A stretch of 64,000 nt of DNA, taken from the NCBI GenBank assembly GCA_009841235.1, contig VXMH01000106.1, forward strand, positions 1-64,000. The letters run 5' to 3'. Every line of letters begins with the position of its first letter. Position 1 is the first letter of the stretch. The DNA is from Caldilineaceae bacterium SB0661_bin_32. GTDB taxonomy: Bacteria; Chloroflexota; Anaerolineae; Caldilineales; Caldilineaceae. The notes under the pieces were generated by a model. That model saw only the letters and a program-made list of their open reading frames with translations. It did not search any database and had not been told where the DNA came from. A program made the translations under genes and the position numbers. This document shows positions 4,606 through 58,930 of this stretch, in pieces.

Positions 4606-5016
4606 TGGTGGAGATGGCGGGAATCGAACCCGCGTCCGAAACATCCGCCCTGAAACGTCTACAAGCTTAGTTGATCCATATGTGATTCGCCGGCGGGCCT
4701 CGGATCAACACGAGGCGCTTCTCCGACTAGCCGATTCTCTTAGACAGCGCTATCGGCGTACCGCTGCCGCAGCTCACAGTGTATGACGGCGACCGCCCAG
4801 CCTGCTGGCCCCACTGGGGCGGGCCGTGGCCCTTTTGAAAGGACCGGCGGCTTACTTAGGCCGCCGCAGCCGCGGAAGCAGCTGGGGTGAAGCCAAAGTT
4901 GAAAGCCATGCCTGTGTTCTTGGCATTTGTATCTGTGTGCGCCTTTTTTACGTAGTCGACGCTCTACGGCTTGCAATCTCAGGCCTGACAATGCCCCGTC
5001 GAAGCCGTTCATCCCC
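4606..5016 (-). ncRNA. ssrA: Transfer-messenger RNA (tmRNA)
   Basis: About 411-nt one-piece tmRNA for trans-translation rescue of stalled ribosomes. The 5' end (GGGGATGAACGGCTTCGACG) and 3' end (TTCGATTCCCGCCATCTCCACCA, split here by description) form a 7-bp acceptor stem, and CCA is encoded at 4608-4606. The tag frame reads from GCC at 4924 to TAA at 4856: 22 residues beginning AKNTGMAFNF and ending PAASAAAAA. The penta-alanine end replaces the usual ALAA-type degron. Flanked by its own promoter and terminator. Confidence 0.95.
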
Positions 5017-5025
5017 ATCGGATCT

Positions 5026-5054
5026 ATTATAGCCCAGTCCACCGCCCAAGTCAA
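5026..5054 (-). promoter_or_regulatory. Sigma70 promoter of ssrA
   Basis: Minus strand: -35 TTGACT at 5054-5049, a 17-base spacer, -10 TATAAT at 5031-5026, about 10 bases ahead of the tmRNA 5' end. Confidence 0.88.
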
Positions 5055-5072
5055 GTTTTTCGCAATTTCGCC

Positions 5073-5558
5073 TCAAGAGGATTCCACCATGTCTACAAGG
5101 GGCAAAGCCTTTACGAAATAGACGGAATCGTCCTCAAGGCTGGGCTGGATGCCGAACCCCAGAGAAGTCTTTAAGTGGAAGTTGGCGTCATTTCCATAGT
5201 CGCTGCGAGAGCGAACCTGGCAGCAGTTCAGTTCTCTCGCACGACCCATCGCCTCGAGCTGCAGAGAGCGTCCAATGCCCTGGTTGCGCTCCTCCGGCAG
5301 CACGCCGAACGCGATGATCTTCGCTTCGTATAGGACCTTATCTCGAAAGACGATCGGCGGTCGCCCTTCGTCCTCTCCCAGTCGCTGCACGACAAAACGC
5401 AGAAATCCTACTGGCCGGCCCTCTACGAGCGCGGCGAACAGGTGGCTGGAGCGGAAATGTCCAGCCTGTACTTCGATGTACGGCTGCTGTTCCAACTGCT
5501 CAACAACCGGCCAAAGCTGGTTCCACAACTGACTTTCCTCAATTACTTCCACAATCAT
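5073..5558 (-). CDS. GNAT-family N-acetyltransferase
   Basis: Predicted acetyl-CoA-dependent acyltransferase of the GNAT fold, 161 residues from the ATG at 5558. Motif A is clear: IIAFGVLPEERNQGIGRSLQ, with the RxxGxG pyrophosphate loop (RNQGIG). A longer frame begins with ATG at 5603, but only the inner start has an AAGGA ahead. It follows the MFS gene on the same strand with a short gap, so the two may be co-transcribed. Acceptor substrate unknown. Confidence 0.82.
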   Translation of the reverse strand: MIVEVIEESQLWNQLWPVVEQLEQQPYIEVQAGHFRSSHLFAALVEGRPVGFLRFVVQRLGEDEGRPPIVFRDKVLYEAKIIAFGVLPEERNQGIGRSLQLEAMGRARELNCCQVRSRSDYGNDANFHLKTSLGFGIQPSLEDDSVYFVKALPLVDMVESS

Positions 5559-5612
5559 CGATTTCAGTTCCTTACCTGCATCTCTACCAATGGCTGGCCT
5601 CATACAAGATGT

Positions 5613-6854
5613 CTAGTCTTCGATTATCTCATCACTTGGCGACCGATCTCTTCTCGCCAGTACCAGCAGCCACTGCGCCGGCAACAGCACTACCGAAGAG
5701 ACCGTCAGCGCGACCGGGATGCGCGCCGCCGTCCCGATCCATCCCAGGACCGGCCCGCCGGCCGCCTGCCCCAGAGAGTTCGCTTGTCCCCAAAGAGAGA
5801 TGACCGTCGCCCGCTGCGCGCTGCGCGTGTTGCGCACGATCCAGGCATTCTCCAGCGGCCCAAGCGTGCTGCGGCAGAGGCTGATCGCCCACACCGCCAG
5901 CAGCGCCACCCAGAAGCTGCGTGTCCAGGCCAAGATGAGCAGACCGGCCGGCAACAGCCCATAGAGCAGCGTCAGCCAGTTGATGGAACGCGCCCGTTCC
6001 TCGGTCGCCCGCCCGCGCCGCGCCAACTCGTTGGCCGCGATTCCGGTCATCGTAGCGCCCACTCCAATAACTCCGAACCAGATCACCGAATCCTCAAGGC
6101 CAAGAAAAGTGGGAAAGTTGAAGCCTTCCAACAGGTGCGGGGTCATCAGACGGTCGTATCCCTCGCTGTACAGCCCGGCCACGAGGCTGAGACCAACGAC
6201 AATGCGCAGGGCCGGGTGTCCGCGCACCGCGCGCAGCCCGGCGCGGGCAGTGGCCGCCATCTCCTTCCACGTTTCCCTTTCTTCCGGCGGCGTGGGCCGA
6301 AAGCCTCTCTCCGGCATGATGAACGCCATGTATGCGGCCAGCGCGATGTACAGCGCTCCGCCGACCAGGATCGGCAACTGCAGCCAGTGGCTCGCCAGCC
6401 ACACACTGACGCCCGTACCCACCAACCCGGCGAACAACCCTACCTGCGCCGAACGCAAAAAGACCGGACCGGCCGCCTCGGCGCCGATCTCGTCGGCCAG
6501 CCAGGCCTGCAAAGCGCCGCTGAGGAAAGTATAGCCAGTGCCCCACAGCACCTGCGCACCCAACACGGCCCAGAACATCGGAATCGACCCTTCCAGCAGA
6601 AAGCCGCAGCCGACCAGCGCCAGCCCAATGAGCACCGACAGCCGCCGGGAGTAGACGTCGGCCACCGCACCGGTCGGCACTTCGAACAATACGACCGTCA
6701 CCTCCAGCACGGTGCCCACCAGCACCATCTGCAGAGGATTCAGGCCCACCGTCTCCACCTGGTAAACCAGGTTGATGGTGAAGACCAGCGCGTTGAAGAG
6801 CGCCCGCCCGCCGCCGATGAAAAGATAGATTCGGGTCGGATTCTGCTTGAGCAA
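5613..6854 (-). CDS. MFS transporter
   Basis: Major facilitator superfamily permease of 413 residues with about 12 hydrophobic segments. The cytoplasmic loop 2-3 motif appears as GAVADVYSRR, and the first helix as YLFIGGGRALFNALVF. Resembles drug or metabolite exporters, but the substrate is not determinable. The start is a TTG at 6854, because no ATG occurs before the second helix; this is the least certain feature of the entry. Upstream lie SRP RNA and tRNA-Ser on the same strand. Confidence 0.82.
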   Translation of the reverse strand: MLKQNPTRIYLFIGGGRALFNALVFTINLVYQVETVGLNPLQMVLVGTVLEVTVVLFEVPTGAVADVYSRRLSVLIGLALVGCGFLLEGSIPMFWAVLGAQVLWGTGYTFLSGALQAWLADEIGAEAAGPVFLRSAQVGLFAGLVGTGVSVWLASHWLQLPILVGGALYIALAAYMAFIMPERGFRPTPPEERETWKEMAATARAGLRAVRGHPALRIVVGLSLVAGLYSEGYDRLMTPHLLEGFNFPTFLGLEDSVIWFGVIGVGATMTGIAANELARRGRATEERARSINWLTLLYGLLPAGLLILAWTRSFWVALLAVWAISLCRSTLGPLENAWIVRNTRSAQRATVISLWGQANSLGQAAGGPVLGWIGTAARIPVALTVSSVVLLPAQWLLVLARRDRSPSDEIIED

Positions 6855-6981
6855 GGAGATTCAAGTCCGTGTGCCCGCGGCATCGTGTCTGGGCACTATG
6901 GCAATTGCCCGGTCTACTGGGCTGGCGGAGGTCCGCCGGCAAGTGAAGGTGAAATGACGGTGTCTGGGCTGAAAGAGAAGT

Positions 6982-7128
6982 CGCGTGTTCGCACCGCTTC
7001 GCCAGCTGCCAGGCGCCCCTGTGGCACCCAGGACGAATCGCTTACCGCTGCTGCCTTCCGGCCCTGACGGGGTTCACGGCGCCCTGCCGCACAGGACCCA
7101 GCGACTGACGAAGCGATGCAAACACGCG
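6982..7128 (-). ncRNA. ffs: Signal recognition particle RNA
   Basis: The conserved SRP RNA core (domain IV) is present on the minus strand: CCCCGTCAGGGCCGGAAGG followed by CAGCAGCGGTAAGCG, with the GGAA tetraloop near 7055-7058. Its flanks (7128-7105 and 7005-6982) pair over about 24 consecutive base pairs with only G-U exceptions, so I place the ends there, giving about 147 nt. That is longer than the 4.5S type (about 114 nt) but lacks room for an Alu domain. The RNA begins 3 bases after tRNA-Ser on the same strand. The exact ends are inferred. Confidence 0.88.
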
Positions 7129-7129
7129 A

Positions 7130-7218
<89 letters not shown>

Positions 7219-44679: not shown

Positions 44680-44901
44680 ATGGAGATAGTTGATTTTCTG
44701 CAACTTGTCCTATTGCTAGGTCTGCTCGCGGCAGTCGCGATTTTGCTGTTCAGCCTCCGCGCCGCGCGTCGTCTGAACGACCAACACGAAAAGGATGACG
44801 CATCCAAGAAAAGTCAGTTGCGCTTGGCACCCGCCCGCGCCCTGCATCGCCCGCGCAACGCTCCAAATCGACAATTGGATAGGCGCCTAGCTAGTGGATA
44901 A
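44680..44901 (+). CDS. Small single-pass membrane protein
   Basis: 73 residues: a hydrophobic segment (LQLVLLLGLLAAVAILLFSL) followed by a basic, charged tail. GGGGATCG precedes the ATG. The membrane helix and start are plausible, but the tail looks low-complexity and no family is recognised. Its 3' end abuts the terminator of the candidate RNA on the other strand. Confidence 0.4.
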   Translation: MEIVDFLQLVLLLGLLAAVAILLFSLRAARRLNDQHEKDDASKKSQLRLAPARALHRPRNAPNRQLDRRLASG

Positions 44902-44932
44902 AAAAGAGGCCGACCCAGTTGGGGCCGACCTC
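44900..44932 (-). terminator. Orphan minus-strand intrinsic terminator 1
   Basis: On the minus strand GAGGTCGGCCC and GGGTCGGCCTC pair over 11 bp (two G-U) around a 5-base loop, followed by TTTTTT. On the plus strand the same arms have C-A mismatches and no U-tract, so it acts on minus-strand transcripts. No minus-strand gene lies upstream for over 13 kb. Confidence 0.85.
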
Positions 44933-45011
44933 TAAGGGGTGATCCAACCCGAAATCCTGCAATGTGTGACGGCTGTTGCCGCAGTCGTCACTACGACGCC
45001 AGGCTGGACCG
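44900..45011 (-). ncRNA. Candidate small RNA 1
   Basis: Bounded by a sigma70-like promoter (45018-45046) and the orphan terminator, giving a transcript of about 112 nt. Internal structure: GTGACG pairs with CGTCAC around a loop containing CTG/CAG, and CGGC/GCCG is an alternative. Between that hairpin and the terminator lies GGTTGGATCACC (44949-44938), matching the conserved 3' end of 16S rRNA, followed by CCTT. No ORF is contained. It resembles no RNA family I know. It sits opposite and upstream of the EfeO-FTR1 iron genes. Confidence 0.55.
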
Positions 45012-45017
45012 GTCTCC

Positions 45018-45046
45018 AGTATAGCACGCCGCTTTACCGCGGCCAA
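45018..45046 (-). promoter_or_regulatory. Promoter of candidate small RNA 1
   Basis: Minus strand: -35 TTGGCC (45046-45041), 17-base spacer, -10 TATACT (45023-45018). Confidence 0.5.
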
Positions 45047-45261
45047 CGTCAACTGGGATGGGCGCCGGCTCAGTCGTATGCCACAGTGCTGCACACCAAA
45101 GTGGCGTACTCCATAGCATAGCGTAACGTTGGGGTCCGCCATGTTCCATTGAGCAGTACTCGTCAGAAAGTACTTGTCAATCGAGCTTGTCAGGCGTTGG
45201 TCGTAGTAAAGTTGTAGAAGAGAGAGTCTTTAATCCAATCCATACAGGAGACCAAATTCAA

Positions 45262-46416
45262 ATGCTTCAGCGAACATTCTCGCACCGCTTCTTTCGAGTA
45301 AAGAGGCAACTCACATCGGCCCTCTGCATTGTCCTGATGCTGGCGCTTTCCGCCTGCGTCGTACAGACAGTTCCCGCTGCCCCGCAAGGCTCGGGCGAAT
45401 CCATGGATTCCGGGCCGGCAGTGGACCTGAATGCCGTCAAGGAATACGCATTGGAGAATGCGGATCTGATGCAGGACGCCACCGCCAGCCTGGCTGACGT
45501 AGCACAGCAATACTACGATCTCGTTCAGGAAGCGCTTGAGGCGAATTCCGATGCCGACCCATACGAACAGCTTTGGGCCGATAACCAGGAAGAAATCAGT
45601 GCCCTTGTCCTTCAGGCGCGAGATCTGTGGCTAGAGGCCAGTACCTGCTATGAACTTGATGAGGGCATCGTAGCAGGTGTTCCTTCGCTGGCCCACTACG
45701 ATGTCTGGATCGACGCCGGCCCCCCTGGCTCTGAGGATCCGGAAGAGGCCTTGGCGTGGACTCTCGAGCTGCCCGACGGCCGGGTATACGAGTCCCCTGG
45801 CAACTTCTTCCACAATCTTCTGGAACCCACGCTTTGGGGAACGAATCCCGAATTCACCGGCCTCAAGGTCGATATGGATGGCGATGGCGTAATCGGTGTG
45901 GGCGAAGCATTGCCCGAAGCCAACATGCTTCTCGGCGCCACCCAGGGGTTGAATGATGCGACCATTGAAATGCAGGGCGCCATCGAAGCCTGGGAACCGA
46001 CGCTTGAGGACGCTCTGACGGCTCTCGTCACCATGATCCCGACCATGAATGAGTACTTCGGACAGTGGAAGGAGTCCGTCTTCGTCACCGGCACTGACAG
46101 CGAACAGGAAAGCTTCATCGCCGTTAGCCGCCTGCACGACATTAAAGGAATCCTTGCCGGACTGAGTTTCACCTACGACAATATCTCGCCCCTGGTGTCC
46201 GATAGCGACGTTCAGCTTCATGAGCAGATCCGAACCGACTTCAACACCCTGATAACATATGTTGACGATCTCTTTGCTCAGGAGCAGGAGGGTGTGCAGT
46301 TCAGCCCCGAAGAGGCCGACCTATTCGGTACTGAGGCGCAGGACCTGGCAACCGCCCTTGCCGCCTTGGTAGCACAGGCCGCTTCAGATTTGAACATCGC
46401 TCTCGATCTGGCCTGA
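45262..46416 (+). CDS. EfeO/imelysin-like iron-uptake lipoprotein with EF-hand loop
   Basis: 384 residues. Lipobox MLALSACVVQ, then a helical region recalling EfeO/M75 imelysin proteins, with AHYDVWIDAG at H145 in the position where that group has HxxE. Residues 204-215 (DMDGDGVIGVGE) are a canonical EF-hand/dockerin-type calcium loop, unusual for the family. The start at 45262 has CAGGAG upstream. The FTR1 permease follows after a hairpin, as in EfeUOB-type ferrous/ferric uptake, so it is probably the external iron-binding component. Confidence 0.7.
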   Translation: MLQRTFSHRFFRVKRQLTSALCIVLMLALSACVVQTVPAAPQGSGESMDSGPAVDLNAVKEYALENADLMQDATASLADVAQQYYDLVQEALEANSDADPYEQLWADNQEEISALVLQARDLWLEASTCYELDEGIVAGVPSLAHYDVWIDAGPPGSEDPEEALAWTLELPDGRVYESPGNFFHNLLEPTLWGTNPEFTGLKVDMDGDGVIGVGEALPEANMLLGATQGLNDATIEMQGAIEAWEPTLEDALTALVTMIPTMNEYFGQWKESVFVTGTDSEQESFIAVSRLHDIKGILAGLSFTYDNISPLVSDSDVQLHEQIRTDFNTLITYVDDLFAQEQEGVQFSPEEADLFGTEAQDLATALAALVAQAASDLNIALDLA

Positions 46417-46511: not shown

Positions 46512-49004
46512 GTGAATAGCGCTGGCGAGCCGATGGTCAAGCCGGGAATCCGCGCTTTCCTCTGTCTGATCTGCATTGCAACAGTTGTGGGCAGTGTGTT
46601 CTTGATGGCGGAGACCTCGCGCGCGCAGCTGGAGCCAAAAACCAGTTTCAACTCCGCCCTCGTTCAGACCGGACAGGACAGCGACGAGGCCCATCTGTGG
46701 CAGGTGGCCGAGCAACTTCGCAGCTTCACTTTTGAGGCCCAGCGCACGCTTTACGAGGCAGAGCGCGCTGAGCAAGACGAAACCAGGAACACACTTGTCG
46801 CGCAAGCCCTGACGAACATCGAATCCGCTGCACGGGTCTATACCGAAGATCTGCATTCATCTCTTTCCGTCTTGGCGCCCGCCGCCGACGCCTGGATTCA
46901 AGAGGCCTTGGACGACGCGCTCCAGGCTGCCCAGACCAATGACGGCCCCGCGCTGTCTGCCGCACGCGGCCGCTTCTGGACCGGCCTGCTCTGGGGGGCG
47001 CAAACCGCCGCCCTCGCCTCCATTGAATCCGACGATGGCGCCCGCGCAGCAGACTGGCTGCGCCTGCGCGAATTCCGTCGCGCCACCAAAGTGAGCATGA
47101 TCGATGACCTGGCCCGTCGGACCATAAACTCTTTCCGTGGCGGACTGACTAATCAGGCAACAACCCTTGCCGTCGTGGGCGATGACCTCAGAGATACCTA
47201 CTTCTTCCGCCTGCGAGAAGCGCTGAACAACCTGGAAAAGGCGGTCAAAAAGGGATACCCGACGCGCTCCGCAGAATGGACAGGTCAACTACAGGGTTAC
47301 TTTGCCATTCTGCGTGATGATTTCGCGGCAAAAGAGGGGGCGTCCGCTGCTACCGCGGTCGAACAATCCCTTAGGAATCTTGAAGAGGACGTCCTGGCCG
47401 GCAATCTTTCCCAAACAGCCGTATTCGTCTCCGAACTGCGCGACCTCATCTCTTCTTATCAGCCTGTGGATCTCTCGCCCGAAGAGTTTGCCCGCCGTAG
47501 TCAGCTGCTCTATCTCTTCATCGATCTGGTCTACATTGAATATCGCGACGGCGTCCGAAACGGCCAGATCACCATCGAAACGGAGTACCTGGAAGCGCTG
47601 ACCTTCCGTGATCAGGCCGAAGTCTTCCTCGCCGAGCTCTACCCCCGCATCTCCGCCGCCGACCCCGCCGCCGCCGAGCGTCTCGTTGTCCTCCTTCAGG
47701 AAATGAAAGTTGCCCTCGAACAGCTCGACGAAAGAAAGCTCGTGCGCTCTCAAGTGGAAGAAGCGCTGGCGCTCACCGAAGAGACACTCGGCGATGCCGT
47801 GCACGACAGCAGCGGCGAGGGCATTTTTAACGTAGTTGAAACTCTGTTAAACGAAATGGAGCAGCAGGTGGCGCGCGGCGAATACGAGCTGGCCGAAAGA
47901 AGCCGTATCCAGGCCTACGCCCTCTTCGACGCCGGGCCGGAGTTGCGGCTTATGGCCTTCTCACCGGACTTGGTCGCGCGCCTCGACGGCCTCTTCTGGC
48001 ACGGCTTCCAGGGACAGCCAGGGCTCTCCTTGGCAGTGGCCCAAAACCGCTCCCCCGTAGAAATCGCCGCAATTCGAGACGTTCTTGACGAAGGTCTGGC
48101 CGAAGCCCAGACTGTGCTCGGCAGCGGCGCCGCACCCCTGGCCATCATTACCAATTCCGCCGTAATCGTCTTCCGCGAAGGGCTGGAAGCCATTGTCATT
48201 CTCGCCGCTCTCATGGCCAGCATGGTGGGCGCCTATGCCGCCTTCCGGCGCTCGATGCTTGTCGGTGTCATTCTGGCAACGATTGCCACTGTGATTACCT
48301 GGTGGATCGCCCAGCGTCTGATGCTCGCCTTCAGCAGCTTTGGGGAGCGCCTGGAAGCCGTCGTTTCCTTGATCGCCGTGGGCGTCCTCCTCCTCATTAC
48401 CAACTGGTTCTTCCATCGAGTCTACTGGAAGGACTGGCTGGCAGGGTTCCACCAGCGCAAGAAAGTTCTGTTGGGAGGAGCGGCCGAAAGTCTGCTGTCG
48501 GCACAGGCTCTTGGCTTTATCGCACTGGGATTCACCAGTGTCTACCGGGAGGGTTTCGAGACGGTGCTCTTCTTGCAGGCGCTCGTGCTGGACGCAGGCC
48601 CGGCTATTGTAATGCAAGGTGTCGCCCTGGGACTCCTCGCGACGGCTATTGTCGGCTTCTTCACCTTCCAGCTTCAGACCCGTCTGCCTTACAAAAAAAT
48701 GCTGGTGATTACCGGCATCCTTATCGGCGGAGTGCTGCTCATAATGGTAGGCAATACGATTCACACGATGCAGGCCGTTGGCTGGGTGCCAATCTCGCCC
48801 GTAGGTTCCCTCAGCCTTCCCTATTGGGTTAGCCTTTGGCTCGGCATCTTCCCAACTTGGGAAACGATTTGCGGCCAGGGCGCAGCCGCAGTCTTTGTAA
48901 TTGGCAGCTACTACCTTGCCGAATTCCAGCAGAAGCAGCGCGTCCGCGCTGGAGCACAGGAACAAGCTGCCGCACTTAAGGAACAAACAGCTCAAACCAA
49001 ATGA
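46512..49004 (+). CDS. FTR1-family iron permease with long extracytoplasmic domain
   Basis: 830 residues from a GTG start. A signal-like helix leads a 500-residue helical external domain, then a C-terminal seven-helix FTR1 permease. The two iron-transport motifs are VFREGLEAIVIL (near residue 555) and VYREGFETVLFL (near 678). The long N-terminal domain may replace part of EfeO/EfeB function. Downstream is an orphan terminator for the opposite strand. Paired with the EfeO-like lipoprotein. Confidence 0.9.
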   Translation: MNSAGEPMVKPGIRAFLCLICIATVVGSVFLMAETSRAQLEPKTSFNSALVQTGQDSDEAHLWQVAEQLRSFTFEAQRTLYEAERAEQDETRNTLVAQALTNIESAARVYTEDLHSSLSVLAPAADAWIQEALDDALQAAQTNDGPALSAARGRFWTGLLWGAQTAALASIESDDGARAADWLRLREFRRATKVSMIDDLARRTINSFRGGLTNQATTLAVVGDDLRDTYFFRLREALNNLEKAVKKGYPTRSAEWTGQLQGYFAILRDDFAAKEGASAATAVEQSLRNLEEDVLAGNLSQTAVFVSELRDLISSYQPVDLSPEEFARRSQLLYLFIDLVYIEYRDGVRNGQITIETEYLEALTFRDQAEVFLAELYPRISAADPAAAERLVVLLQEMKVALEQLDERKLVRSQVEEALALTEETLGDAVHDSSGEGIFNVVETLLNEMEQQVARGEYELAERSRIQAYALFDAGPELRLMAFSPDLVARLDGLFWHGFQGQPGLSLAVAQNRSPVEIAAIRDVLDEGLAEAQTVLGSGAAPLAIITNSAVIVFREGLEAIVILAALMASMVGAYAAFRRSMLVGVILATIATVITWWIAQRLMLAFSSFGERLEAVVSLIAVGVLLLITNWFFHRVYWKDWLAGFHQRKKVLLGGAAESLLSAQALGFIALGFTSVYREGFETVLFLQALVLDAGPAIVMQGVALGLLATAIVGFFTFQLQTRLPYKKMLVITGILIGGVLLIMVGNTIHTMQAVGWVPISPVGSLSLPYWVSLWLGIFPTWETICGQGAAAVFVIGSYYLAEFQQKQRVRAGAQEQAAALKEQTAQTK

Positions 49005-49027
49005 AAAAACCGGCCCCGAAGGGCCGG
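49004..49027 (-). terminator. Orphan minus-strand intrinsic terminator 2
   Basis: Minus strand CCGGCCC-TTCG-GGGCCGG followed by TTTTTT, a UUCG-capped 7-bp stem. On the plus strand the A-run precedes the hairpin, so it cannot terminate FTR1. No minus-strand gene lies upstream for over 9 kb. Confidence 0.85.
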
Positions 49028-49095
49028 CTGAAAGTAGGAACAACAATCTTGGAAAGTGGCTGCTGACACCAGTCACTATCCACATGCTGAACCCA
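49004..49095 (-). ncRNA. Candidate small RNA 2
   Basis: A transcript of about 92 nt is predicted from the extended -10 promoter at 49102-49130 to the orphan terminator. An internal two-part stem is possible: GTGG with CCAC outside, TGAC-TGGT-GTCA inside. The segment TAGTGAC also occurs in candidate RNA 1. It lies between FTR1 and hmuT, antisense to their intergenic region. No known family recognised. Confidence 0.5.
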
Positions 49096-49101
49096 AAGCA
49101 G

Positions 49102-49130
49102 AGTATAACAGATGCTGCCGCGCTATGCAA
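49102..49130 (-). promoter_or_regulatory. Promoter of candidate small RNA 2
   Basis: Minus strand: -35 TTGCAT (49130-49125), 17-base spacer, extended -10 TGTTATACT with TATACT at 49107-49102. Confidence 0.5.
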
Positions 49131-49199
49131 CAGTGGCTTTTCTTCTGCTCTACCGGTTCAGCCAAGAGACGGTCACCCTGTGACCGAATGGAGAAAGCC

Positions 49200-50183
49200 A
49201 TGTCCTCGTTAAAGCGTTTCGGGCTTCTGATCATCTGCGTCGGTCTTTTCACCGCTTGCACTTTGCCCGTCGACCTGACAACACTTCCAGCGAACCAAAC
49301 TGCAGCGGAGTCCCCTGATTCCTCGGTCGAAAACGCGCAACCTTCCCAAGATGGAATGGCCATCGAACTGAACGATGCCGACGGCAACCTTGTTGTTGTC
49401 GACGATCTGAGCCGAATTGTCACCCTCGGTGGAACGGTCACAGAAATCGTTTTCGCATTAGGCTCGGGTGACAACGTGGTAGCGGTCGACAGTTCCAGCA
49501 GCTACCCTGCTCAGGTGAGCGACTTGCCCCAAGTAGGTTATCAGCGCCGCCTTTCCGCCGAAGGTGTACTGGCTCTTGACCCCTCACTCATTCTGGCAAC
49601 AACCGAAGCCGGTCCATCTGAGGCCATTCAACATCTCAGGGACACTGGTGTTGATGTCCTCTTGCTAGAATCCGATGATTCGGTGGAAGGCGTCGCGGAA
49701 AAGATTCGCGGTTTCGCCAAAGCTCTGGGCCGGGAAGCAGAAGGCGAATCCCTGGTTGTTCGGCTTGAGGCCGACTTGGCCCAGGCCCGCTCCTATGTCC
49801 AGAGTGCCGAAAGTCAACCGCGGGTACTGTTCATCTACGCGCGAGGCGCCGGCGCCGTCAGCGTCTCCGGACAGGGCACCGGAGCTCACACAATGATTCA
49901 GCTGGCGGGCGGCGAAAACGCCATCGAAGGATTCGAGGGCTACCGACCGCTCACTGCCGAGGCCGCGCTCGCCGCTGCACCTGACGTCATCCTCATGTTC
50001 ACCAGCGGGCTCCAGAGCCTCGGTGGCCAGGATGACTTGCTGGAAGTACCGGGCATTGCTCAAACGCCCGCGGCCCAGAATGGCCGCATCGTGGCTATGG
50101 ACGGTCTCTTTCTGCTCAACTTCGGTCCGCGAATGGGCCAAGCCGTTCTCGACCTGGCAAAGCAAATCCGAGAAGACCAATAG
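49200..50183 (+). CDS. hmuT: Haem ABC transporter substrate-binding lipoprotein
   Basis: 327 residues from the ATG at 49200, preceded by GGAG. Lipobox GLFTACTLP. HmuT-type landmarks are SRIVTLGGTVTEIVFALG, DLPQVGYQRRLSAEGVLALDPSLIL and AGGENAIEGFEGYRPLTAEA. In this family a Tyr or His binds haem; Y in VGYQR and Y in EGYRP are candidates. First gene of a haem import operon. Confidence 0.9.
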   Translation: MSSLKRFGLLIICVGLFTACTLPVDLTTLPANQTAAESPDSSVENAQPSQDGMAIELNDADGNLVVVDDLSRIVTLGGTVTEIVFALGSGDNVVAVDSSSSYPAQVSDLPQVGYQRRLSAEGVLALDPSLILATTEAGPSEAIQHLRDTGVDVLLLESDDSVEGVAEKIRGFAKALGREAEGESLVVRLEADLAQARSYVQSAESQPRVLFIYARGAGAVSVSGQGTGAHTMIQLAGGENAIEGFEGYRPLTAEAALAAAPDVILMFTSGLQSLGGQDDLLEVPGIAQTPAAQNGRIVAMDGLFLLNFGPRMGQAVLDLAKQIREDQ

Positions 50184-50258: not shown

Positions 50259-50630
50259 ATGTGTCAGCATATCGTCATCTTGGCCGAACGTAATGGACAG
50301 CAATATGTCAGCCAGTGCGAACACGGAACCGTCCATCTGATCTGGGATGGAGTCGGACTCCACCTTTCGGCCGAAGCCTTTAACCGCTTGGCAGCACACA
50401 TTATGAAAACGCGTGCCAACATCCTGGAGCTTGGTGATTCCGTCAGTCAGGGTCACTGCCGTATGTGCGTTGGCAAATTGTCGCTTATCCTACCTGTGGA
50501 GGACTTCCTACTCATGGTAGAGATGATCGATGAGGTCATGCCCCAAATCAACTTGACTGGTAACGGACAATATCACCCCTCCGTGCGGATAGCGCCACCA
50601 CATCAACTGATTCCGCCAGTCCTGAACTGA
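50259..50630 (+). CDS. Uncharacterised Cys/His-rich protein in the haem operon
   Basis: 123 residues, no signal peptide. Potential metal or haem ligands cluster at both ends of the core: C2-H4 (MCQH), C20-H22 (QCEHGTVHLIW) and H66-C67/C70 (GHCRMC). It loosely recalls small Cys-rich DUF6686-like proteins, not verified. Encoded between the haem-binding lipoprotein and the permease, so a cytosolic role in haem or iron hand-off, or in sensing, is inferred. AAAGGAG precedes the ATG. Confidence 0.75.
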   Translation: MCQHIVILAERNGQQYVSQCEHGTVHLIWDGVGLHLSAEAFNRLAAHIMKTRANILELGDSVSQGHCRMCVGKLSLILPVEDFLLMVEMIDEVMPQINLTGNGQYHPSVRIAPPHQLIPPVLN

Positions 50631-50784: not shown

Positions 50785-51885
50785 ATGTTAGCCAAACTTC
50801 ATCTGCTCAGCCCCTTCTCTTTCGACTCCTTAAGGACGCGACCACTCATCGTCTTGGGAGGACTGGGACTCATGCTCCTCCTTACCAGTGCTATGGGCAT
50901 CGCCACGGGCGCAGTCACGGTTTCTCCCAGCCAGTTAATCGCTATCCTGGCCCAATCAGCTGGCCTGGATTTCCCCTGGACCTATGATGCCCGCCAAGAG
51001 GCTGTCGTTATCGCGATTCGTTTGCCCAGAATCTTGCTGGGCCTTCTTATCGGTTCAGGACTGGCTCTGTCAGGCGCCACCATGCAGGGGCTTTTTCGCA
51101 ACCCTCTCGCAGATCCAGGATTGATTGGAATCTCCAGCGGTGCGGCTCTGGCGGTAACCGCGTGGATCGTGTTGGGAGGCCCCCTCATGGAGTTGGCCGG
51201 CGCCTTTCTCAGCTACGCTTCGCTGCCACTGGCGGCTTTCATCGGAAGCATAGTCGCTACTCTGATTGTCTACCGTCTCTCTACCCAGAACGGGCGTACG
51301 ATCGTGTCCACCATGTTGTTGGCCGGTATCGCCGTCAATGCCTTGGCTGGCGCTGGTGCTGGCTTTTTTGTACTTCTCGCTACCGATGATCAATTGCGGG
51401 ATATCGTATTCTGGAGTCTGGGCAGTCTGGGGGGAGCAACTTGGCGAGCTGTCTTGACCACAGTTCCCTTCGTCGGGCTGGCAATTCTGGCACTTCCTCG
51501 TCTGGCGAGGTCGCTCAATGCTCTACTGTTGGGAGAAGCCGAGGCTACACATCTGGGAATCTCGATCGAGCAAGTGAAGCGCGTAATCGTTGTCCTGACC
51601 GCACTGGCAGTTGGCGCGTCAGTGGCCGCTGCAGGCAGCATTGGGTTTGTCGGGCTTGTCGTGCCCCATCTTCTTCGCCTGATGGTAGGGCCGAAACACC
51701 GTCTTGTCTTGCCAGGCTCGGCGTTGCTGGGCGCCACCATTCTGGTTGGCGCAGATACAATCGCGCGTACGATCATCGCACCCGCCGAGTTGCCCATCGG
51801 TATCGTCACCGCAAGCCTGGGCGCGCCCTTTTTCCTCTGGCTCTTGCTTCGCGTACGCCACCAGGGAGAGTCTGGCCTTGCTTGA
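50785..51885 (+). CDS. hmuU: Haem ABC transporter permease
   Basis: FecCD-family permease, 366 residues, about ten helices. RLPRILLGLLIGSGLALSG and MQGLFRNPLADPGLIGISSGA are the family signature. The coupling segment GLVVPHLLRLMVGP is present near the C-terminus. Its last codons overlap the start of hmuV by 8 bases. Confidence 0.93.
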   Translation: MLAKLHLLSPFSFDSLRTRPLIVLGGLGLMLLLTSAMGIATGAVTVSPSQLIAILAQSAGLDFPWTYDARQEAVVIAIRLPRILLGLLIGSGLALSGATMQGLFRNPLADPGLIGISSGAALAVTAWIVLGGPLMELAGAFLSYASLPLAAFIGSIVATLIVYRLSTQNGRTIVSTMLLAGIAVNALAGAGAGFFVLLATDDQLRDIVFWSLGSLGGATWRAVLTTVPFVGLAILALPRLARSLNALLLGEAEATHLGISIEQVKRVIVVLTALAVGASVAAAGSIGFVGLVVPHLLRLMVGPKHRLVLPGSALLGATILVGADTIARTIIAPAELPIGIVTASLGAPFFLWLLLRVRHQGESGLA

Positions 51886-52660
51886 AGCTTTTTCCATCAG
51901 CGTGCAAGTAGGCGGGAAACGGCTTGTGCATGGCGTCTCTGTCGAAGTCCCGCCGGGCCATCTGCTGGCTGTCGTCGGACCCAACGGCGCCGGCAAGTCG
52001 ACTCTGCTACGCGTTCTGAGCGGAGAGCACGCTCCGACCAGCGGACAGATCTGCTTGAATGAAACTGAGCTCCATCGCTGGTCGGCGAAGCAACTGGCGC
52101 AGATGCGGGCCGTGCTGCCTCAAGACTCCAGCCTTTCCTTCCCATTCCGCGTGCTGGACGTCGTGCTGATAGGACGTACTCCGCACCTGCGCAGTGCAGA
52201 AACACCGCACGATTACGCCATCGTCGATCAGGCCCTGCGAGCAGTTGACATGTCAGAATTTGGCCGTCGCCCCTACACAACTCTTTCCGGCGGTGAGAAG
52301 CAACGTGTACAACTGGCCCGCGTGTTGGCCCAAATCTGGGAAGAGTCACCCCTGGGACCGCGGTATCTGTTCCTGGACGAGCCGACTAATAATCTCGATA
52401 TAGCGCATCAACATCGAATGATGCGAGTTGCAAGAAGTCTGAAAGATCAGGGCGTGGGGATTCTGGCAGTCCTTCACGACCTCAACCTGGCGGCTCAGTA
52501 CGCCGACAAAATTATGCTTATGCAAAATGGGCAAGTTTCGGCAAATGGGTTTCCTTCTGACGTACTTACCCCCAATCGTATAAAGGAAGTATTTATGATC
52601 CCCGTCAAAGTCATCCAACACCCAACTGCATTCTGTCCAGTTATTGTGCCTGTACCATGA
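51878..52660 (+). CDS. hmuV: Haem ABC transporter ATP-binding protein
   Basis: ATPase of the importer, 260 residues. Walker A GPNGAGKST, Q-loop VLPQDSS, signature LSGGEKQRVQLARVL, Walker B YLFLDEPTNNLD and switch His in AVLHDLNLA. I start at the TTG at 51878 (LLEAFSISVQVGGK), with GGGAG upstream and overlapping the hmuU stop. The frame is open further back to 51704, but only as an overlap with hmuU. Confidence 0.92.
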   Translation: MLEAFSISVQVGGKRLVHGVSVEVPPGHLLAVVGPNGAGKSTLLRVLSGEHAPTSGQICLNETELHRWSAKQLAQMRAVLPQDSSLSFPFRVLDVVLIGRTPHLRSAETPHDYAIVDQALRAVDMSEFGRRPYTTLSGGEKQRVQLARVLAQIWEESPLGPRYLFLDEPTNNLDIAHQHRMMRVARSLKDQGVGILAVLHDLNLAAQYADKIMLMQNGQVSANGFPSDVLTPNRIKEVFMIPVKVIQHPTAFCPVIVPVP

Positions 52661-52705
52661 TTGTCGCGAAACTTCATAGAGCCGATTGAGCAAAAGGAGA
52701 CTACT

Positions 52706-53041
52706 GTGGTCATCGTTATGAACCGAATCGCCGTGAAACCGGACTTCGCTGACGCGTTCGAAGATCGCTTCAAGGATAGGGCCGCGCTCGTAGACCGAAT
52801 GCCTGGCTTTCTCTCCTTTCGCCTGCTGCGCCCGGCAACTGAAGGCGCCCCGTTTGTCGTAGAAACGCATTGGGAATGCAAAGAGGACTTTGAACGATGG
52901 ACCAAATCAGACCAGTTCCAGCAAGGCCATGCCCGATCGGGAAGGCTTCCCCGTGAGGCTTTCGCAGGTCATCCAAAGCTGGAAATATTCGAAGTCGTTC
53001 AGTCTGCAAAGCGGGGGGAAATCCTGGAGTTACCAGAATAA
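52706..53041 (+). CDS. IsdG/HmoA-type haem-degrading monooxygenase
   Basis: 111 residues, antibiotic-biosynthesis-monooxygenase (ABM) fold. It aligns with IsdG over the active site: N6 (VMNRIAV), W65 (DFERWTKS) and H75 (QQGHARS) match the N/W/H triad of staphylococcal IsdG. Start is a GTG at 52706 preceded by AAAGGAG; the frame opens to a TTG at 52661. Last gene of the haem operon, predicted to open haem in the cytosol and release iron. Confidence 0.87.
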   Translation: MVIVMNRIAVKPDFADAFEDRFKDRAALVDRMPGFLSFRLLRPATEGAPFVVETHWECKEDFERWTKSDQFQQGHARSGRLPREAFAGHPKLEIFEVVQSAKRGEILELPE

Positions 53042-58303: not shown

Positions 58304-58930
58304 CTACGACCGGTACAGGCCCTGTTCAACTATGTAGCGTTCGACCGCGCGGGGGACCTGATAGCGAATCGGCTGCCCCGACTGTATGCGTTCCCGCAAA
58401 CTGCTGCTGGCAATCTCCAATTCCGGCATTTCCAATACGATAACCCGCTCGCGCACGCCGGGCAGTTCCGCTTCCAGGTCCGCCCAGTCGATCTTTACGT
58501 CATGGCGGCGCAGAGCGACCAGCCGACAGTTGCGCACCAGCCATTCCGGCTCATGCCACGTCGGCAGATTCCGCAGACTGTCCAACCCCATCAGAAAGTA
58601 GAGCTGCCCCTCCCTCCCGACCCTTTTTTGGAAAAGCCGCATCAAATCCGACGTGTAATGGGGACCAGGGCGCTCGGCGTCGATGAGACTTATGCATATT
58701 GCGGTTTCATCGGCAACTGCCAGGCGGCACATAGCCAACCGGTGATGCAAGGGGGATATGGGGCTGTCTGGCTTATGGGGCGGGTCCCCGGCCGGCGCCA
58801 GCACGATCTGGTCCAATTGCAGTTGATGCCGGGCCTCTACCGCAAGGACCAGATGCCCAATGTGAATCGGATCGAAAGTGCCTCCGAAAACGCCGATTCG
58901 TTTGCCTCTCAATCCGTCTCTTGAGCTCAT
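58304..58930 (-). CDS. nadD: Nicotinate-nucleotide adenylyltransferase
   Basis: Adenylates nicotinate mononucleotide in NAD synthesis, 208 residues. [18 protein letters not shown] provides the HxGH nucleotidyl-transfer site, and ASSSLRERI stands for the ISSTxIR motif. Usual length. It lies downstream of obgE on the same strand with 115 bases between, an arrangement common in bacteria. Confidence 0.93.

Follow-up and report, generated by a model that had tools for sequence, protein, structure and literature searches.

In Bacillus subtilis, FsrA is a small RNA (sRNA) of 84 nt that does not depend on Hfq (PMC12871923), so iron sparing by an sRNA is possible without Hfq. RyhB is Hfq-dependent and regulated by Fur (PMC12871923). 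In Caulobacter crescentus, the iron-linked sRNA RusT has a promoter without a recognisable Fur box (PMC11005374), which means that an iron-linked sRNA can do without one. A limited search of the literature returned no paper on an iron-linked sRNA in Chloroflexota. To our knowledge, no regulatory sRNA has been studied in that phylum. Here we describe sRNA1, which is almost certainly a genuine small non-coding RNA gene, in a 64,000-nt stretch of Caldilineaceae DNA (the window). It represents a new, lineage-specific RNA family, and the type of regulator is one already known.

The whole sRNA1 unit, from a sigma70-type promoter to an intrinsic terminator, occupies 44899-45046 on the minus strand. 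Its promoter consists of the -35 hexamer TTGGCC (45046-45041), a 17-nt spacer and the -10 hexamer TATACT (45023-45018), extended by TGC (TGC-TATACT, 45018-45026). Both genera in which the RNA occurs keep the -35 TTG, the 17-nt spacer and the extended -10 (TGCTATACT in most copies), and TTG with this spacing is found in all copies whose promoter is intact. Identity within the genus is 0.96 at the -10 and declines to 0.34 further upstream. The -10 is lost in one congener (G003) and in the third copy of a genome of the other genus (G035), while terminators are intact in nearly all copies. As transcription usually starts about 7 nt past the -10, it would do so here near 45011, in which case the conserved GGAGACC (45011-45017, minus strand) is probably the discriminator and sRNA1 begins almost at its basal stem. 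The predicted transcript of about 112 nt (44899-45011) ends in the terminator hairpin P3 (44905-44933, minus strand), recognised by consensus scan and alignment and followed by a U-run. In the consensus scan, promoter-like sites (4 vs 4.4 expected) and terminator-like sites (14 vs 12.6 expected) were as frequent as in shuffled DNA, so these matches alone are no proof of a gene. Going upstream on the minus strand, the first gene that matches a family encodes a cytidylyltransferase (58304-58930) and is 13.3 kb away.

Several further features surround the start of sRNA1. About 55 bp upstream lies a conserved element, GACTGAGCCGGCGCC (45061-45075, minus strand; GCTGAACC in several copies), found at the same place in L033, L047 and L072; the GCTGAACC-like element is mirrored by GGTTCAGC just past the start, is common to the two genera and may be an operator. 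The imelysin gene next to sRNA1 has a Shine-Dalgarno region, ACAGGAGACC (45246-45254, plus strand), that nearly repeats the -10/start region of sRNA1, TATACTGGAGACC (45011-45023, minus strand), the heptamer GGAGACC being common to both, and ACAGGAGACC is retained in 8/8 relatives examined; chance, common origin or mimicry may lie behind the resemblance. On the plus strand, the stop codon of a short ORF (44680-44901; 73 aa, with a hydrophobic N-terminal stretch) overlaps the sRNA1 terminator. This ORF is kept in some congeners and belongs to no family.

The predicted folding energy of sRNA1 is -55.4 kcal/mol (z = -5.3), and none of 200 shuffles folded as well. The architecture is a rod formed by a basal stem (P1), an internal loop and an apical hairpin (P2), followed by a short linker and P3. 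The 5′ strand of P1, GGUCCAGCCUGG, lies at 44999-45010 with 97.2% of cells paired, and the alignment pairs it with a 3′ strand at 44941-44952; P2, GUGACGACUG-CGGCAA-CAGCCGUCAC, spans 44966-44991, with 6 of its 10 pairs changed on both sides across the two genera (all on the minus strand). In alignment A3 (12 sequences), which was fitted to the covariance model and whose counts lean towards the structure, 96.1% of cells pair, and 11 base pairs and 24 cells carry changes on both sides, neither number being reached in any of 500 shuffles. When the A3 structure is shifted by 1-3 columns, pairing drops to 32-48%. A MAFFT alignment that was not model-fitted (A1) also gave pairing and a covariation score above shuffles. 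Conservation is concentrated in paired regions, namely the P1 core CAGC/GUUG, whose G-U wobble is invariant (12/12 sRNA1 sequences), and the CUG...CAG apex of P2. In G035, P2 has another sequence (GAAGUUCACUG...CAGCGAACUUC) and an identical fold. A first-pass annotation had proposed a minus-strand small RNA gene here, with promoter and terminator of its own, no minus-strand gene within 13 kb upstream and a transcript of about 112 nt with an internal hairpin, and had suggested a covariance search for compensatory changes. The promoter and terminator are present where it had placed them, the upstream gap agrees with the position of the cytidylyltransferase gene, the fold and the both-side changes in P2 confirm the hairpin, and conservation together with the compensatory changes, recovered from homologues in two genera, supports the gene.

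Two other explanations of the structure were rejected. The P2 motif is single in the genome, which argues against a repeated genomic palindrome. A coding RNA was dismissed because no reading frame in sRNA1 is conserved: frames vary and are broken from one relative to another, and there is no suitably placed ribosome site. As a separate observation, the P2 loop of one copy (G016; L009/L032) reads UUGCCG in place of CGGCAA, its reverse complement, as if the core of the palindrome had been flipped; this loop is near a contig end, and an assembly error is possible. The P2 loops UUCCCG and UUGGCG of G035 resemble the flipped form.

By blastn against 60 relatives, sRNA1 was found in nine congeners besides its own genome, at 73-88% identity, and in no other genus; it is thus present in 10 of 17 congeners (own genome included). 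A covariance model (R1) added two copies in G035 (51 and 45 bits) and a rebuilt model (R2) a third (74 bits), for a total of 13 homologous copies in two genera; sRNA1 itself scores 115-118 bits with R1 and R2. A covariance search of 396 genomes drawn evenly from the class found none outside the genus (G035 was not among the genomes listed), and no plasmid copies were found. In Rfam, no family reached its gathering threshold for sRNA1 or for the second small RNA of the window, sRNA2, which gave a sub-threshold match to Atu_C3 that was discarded.

The surroundings of sRNA1 are dominated by genes for iron acquisition. Divergent from it is an operon that begins with an imelysin-family (EfeO-like) gene (45262-46416; PF09375), followed in the window by genes for an FTR1/EfeU-type iron permease that carries a long extension at its N terminus (46512-49004; PF03239), a Peripla_BP_2 substrate-binding protein (49056-50183; PF01497; true start probably near 49191), a FecCD permease, an ABC ATPase and an ABM-domain protein (50785-53041; family matches), and ferritin, those with coordinates all on the plus strand. 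In nine genomes, including its own, the RNA is flanked by a DUF72 gene and by the imelysin-family gene, from which it diverges; in G016 the contig breaks off past the RNA and the imelysin side alone is visible. The imelysin gene is absent from all seven RNA-less congeners, in which DUF72 leads on to the distal part of the cluster; that search included no dedicated positive control, but blastp does find the gene in the eight other RNA-bearing congeners. Tabulated against each other in the 17 congeners (9/1/0/7), RNA and imelysin gene are associated with a Fisher p of 0.0004, uncorrected for shared ancestry, and a single deletion could suffice for the joint absence of RNA and operon. A single deletion in G003 reaches from inside FTR1, most of which is gone, across the imelysin gene and into the sRNA promoter; the RNA body survives. 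The three copies of G035 are at different places, all divergent from siderophore-type binding-protein/FecCD operons or from an ABM gene belonging to a cluster of that kind; for two of the three, a flavodoxin lies in or near the cluster. The substrates of these ABC systems are read from family alone. Every copy either diverges from an operon for iron acquisition, of the imelysin/FTR1 or the siderophore-type ABC kind, or stands at the site of a deleted one. We consider the linkage of sRNA1 to iron operons very probable, and the siting supports the tie to iron implied in the first-pass annotation, while gene linkage alone is no proof of iron control.

Some neighbouring features deserve mention. 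The N-terminal extension of the FTR1 permease is about 540 residues long, and the protein scores far under the cut-off of the NCBIfam EfeU model. At 50259-50630 (plus strand), a 123-aa protein starting with MCQ is conserved in the iron cluster and matches nothing in Pfam or NCBIfam; in G035, right next to the second RNA copy, there is a start of similar appearance, MCQIQ. Elsewhere in the window, 4606-7218 (minus strand) holds a tmRNA, a small SRP RNA and a tRNA gene.

About 4 kb from sRNA1, between FTR1 and the Peripla_BP_2/FecCD operon, lies sRNA2 (unit 49004-49130, minus strand), divergent from the latter operon, of which the Peripla_BP_2 gene is the first. Its promoter, TTGCAT-17-TATACT with an extended TGT (49102-49130), was identified by consensus and conservation, and its predicted transcript of about 98 nt (49004-49101) has a P1/P2/terminator architecture like that of sRNA1, as indicated by conservation, R2 and fold (z = -4.5). 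The element is 80-92% conserved in six relatives, and its terminator is strong. R2 detects sRNA2 over its full length, though weakly, at 18.6 bits, which no other match in 18 kb apart from sRNA1 exceeds; in five of the six relatives it gives 15.6-23.6 bits, about the level of antisense matches there at the sRNA1 locus. The two RNAs have in common the CAGC/GUUG core of P1, including the G-U wobble (7/7 sequences of sRNA2), and the CUG...CAG apex. Covariation within sRNA2 alone is thin (one double-changed pair). We regard sRNA2 as a probable paralogue of sRNA1.

The genome encodes three Fur-family proteins, and these, with the repeated divergent linkage and the non-coding nature of the RNA, lead us to infer iron-responsive expression and action in trans. 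sRNA1 would be produced together with iron uptake under iron shortage, and would act post-transcriptionally, its exposed linker or loops base-pairing with mRNAs, presumably without Hfq, as FsrA does in Bacillus. Most likely, sRNA1 and sRNA2 form a small family of iron-linked regulatory RNAs that act in trans. Several searches count against this trans-regulator reading. At the promoter-bearing copies, the best match to a Fur box was not above shuffles (the E. coli consensus was used, and the phylum's own box may differ), and no IdeR/DtxR box was conserved at the promoter; single low values (G003 for Fur, the window at -114 for IdeR) were not common to relatives. No match to Hfq was found in the genome. 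No conserved single-stranded seed emerged in sRNA1, the linker being among its least conserved parts (identity 0.52 within the genus and 0.28 between genera). Direct antisense action on the leader of the neighbouring mRNA was rejected, since pairing at 12 loci showed no excess over shuffles. Taken whole, with its mechanism, the reading of sRNA1 as an iron-linked RNA gene acting as a trans regulator stands in our view at an even chance.

Because conservation sits in the helices, the main rival is a protein-binding RNA, whose rod would titrate or guide a regulator or RNA chaperone in iron homeostasis with no mRNA pairing. The wobble-bearing P1 core, constant in both RNAs, and the CUG...CAG apex suit a protein ligand, as do the varying unpaired linker and the lack of a detectable Hfq. 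However, stability alone conserves the paired regions of any structured sRNA, the sequence of P2 differs between genera, and no binding protein is known; we regard this explanation as somewhat unlikely. Alternatively, transcription of the divergent unit may tune the adjacent iron operon in cis through the shared promoter region, by a bidirectional promoter, a shared operator or supercoiling, with the RNA product of little importance. That every copy is transcribed away from an iron operon, that copies multiply with operons and that elements near -55 are common to both genera would all be expected, but the compensatory changes indicate selection on RNA structure itself, terminators have stayed intact nearly throughout, and duplexes between sRNA and neighbouring leader are not in excess. 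A cis-acting transcript thus appears distinctly improbable.

The first-pass annotation had also noticed a segment resembling the 3′ end of 16S rRNA, through which sRNA1 might bind Shine-Dalgarno regions or rRNA-binding proteins, and had conceded that chance could explain the likeness. The match is real: GGTTGGATCACC (44938-44949, minus strand) is exact and single in the window, and has its source in the 3′ strand of P1, which includes GUUGGAUC. About 0.05 12-mers common with the 16S tail are expected per 64-kb window on both strands, and many features were inspected, so the match is weak evidence. Neither its conservation nor a function stood up: GGATCACC is kept in only 4/13 copies, the rest having GGATTGCC, GGACTACC, GGGTCCCA, GGACTCTC, GGAATTCC, GGATCACA or GAATCTCG, and is absent from sRNA2, while pairing with CCAGC in P1 holds GUUGG constant or almost constant. 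A search for the genome's own 16S tail with one search pattern gave no match. As a family trait the segment is refuted by the alignment, though it could be a trait of this species alone; on the sequences compared it is coincidental, we reject it as functional, and binding through it seems highly implausible. That there is no gene at all, only a chance coincidence of promoter and terminator consensus matches, fits the scan counts, which equal those of shuffles, and is strongly opposed by the covariation, as well as by the fold, the conservation and the kept promoter spacing, leaving it a negligible prospect.

On the trans-regulator reading or with a protein partner, the rod RNAs of Caldilineaceae may constitute a portable module, in which each iron operon has its own divergent RNA that recognises a protein or mRNAs through the P1 core and the CUG...CAG apex. 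We offer this tentatively, as something rather short of an even bet; if true, it would give Chloroflexota an Hfq-independent RNA of an iron regulon. What we have is an RNA family backed by structural evidence, with a proposed role in iron homeostasis that is open to testing, in an uncultured Chloroflexota lineage in which no Hfq was found. The data suggest that each iron operon is able to carry its own divergent sRNA, and post-transcriptional iron sparing in this lineage can be tested by metatranscriptomics.

Among described RNAs, 6S RNA (RF00013) resembles sRNA1 in being a long imperfect hairpin with an internal bubble; it was rejected as an identity for sRNA1, which does not match it, the genome's own 6S RNA being on another contig (60.3 bits). 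Xoo2 (RF02241) shares the layout of a 5′ hairpin plus terminator and was likewise rejected, at 25.4 bits, far under the gathering score of 45, with 0/5 relatives matching. RyhB, PrrF and NrrF, the Fur-regulated sRNAs of Proteobacteria, differ from sRNA1 in that it has no sequence match to any Rfam family. They are like it in their link to iron, and PrrF also in number, as it is present in several copies in one genome. RusT shares with sRNA1 an iron link and a promoter without a recognisable Fur box; RusT itself needs Hfq and represses TonB-dependent receptors, and we claim no sequence kinship between the two. Unlike the Fur-regulated, iron-sparing FsrA, sRNA1 shows no recognisable Fur box, gives no sequence or Rfam match, forms a long rod, and has no Fbp-like helper that we could identify. 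With FsrA it nevertheless shares its short length, its trans-encoded type, a genome in which no Hfq was found and a proposed role in iron economy.
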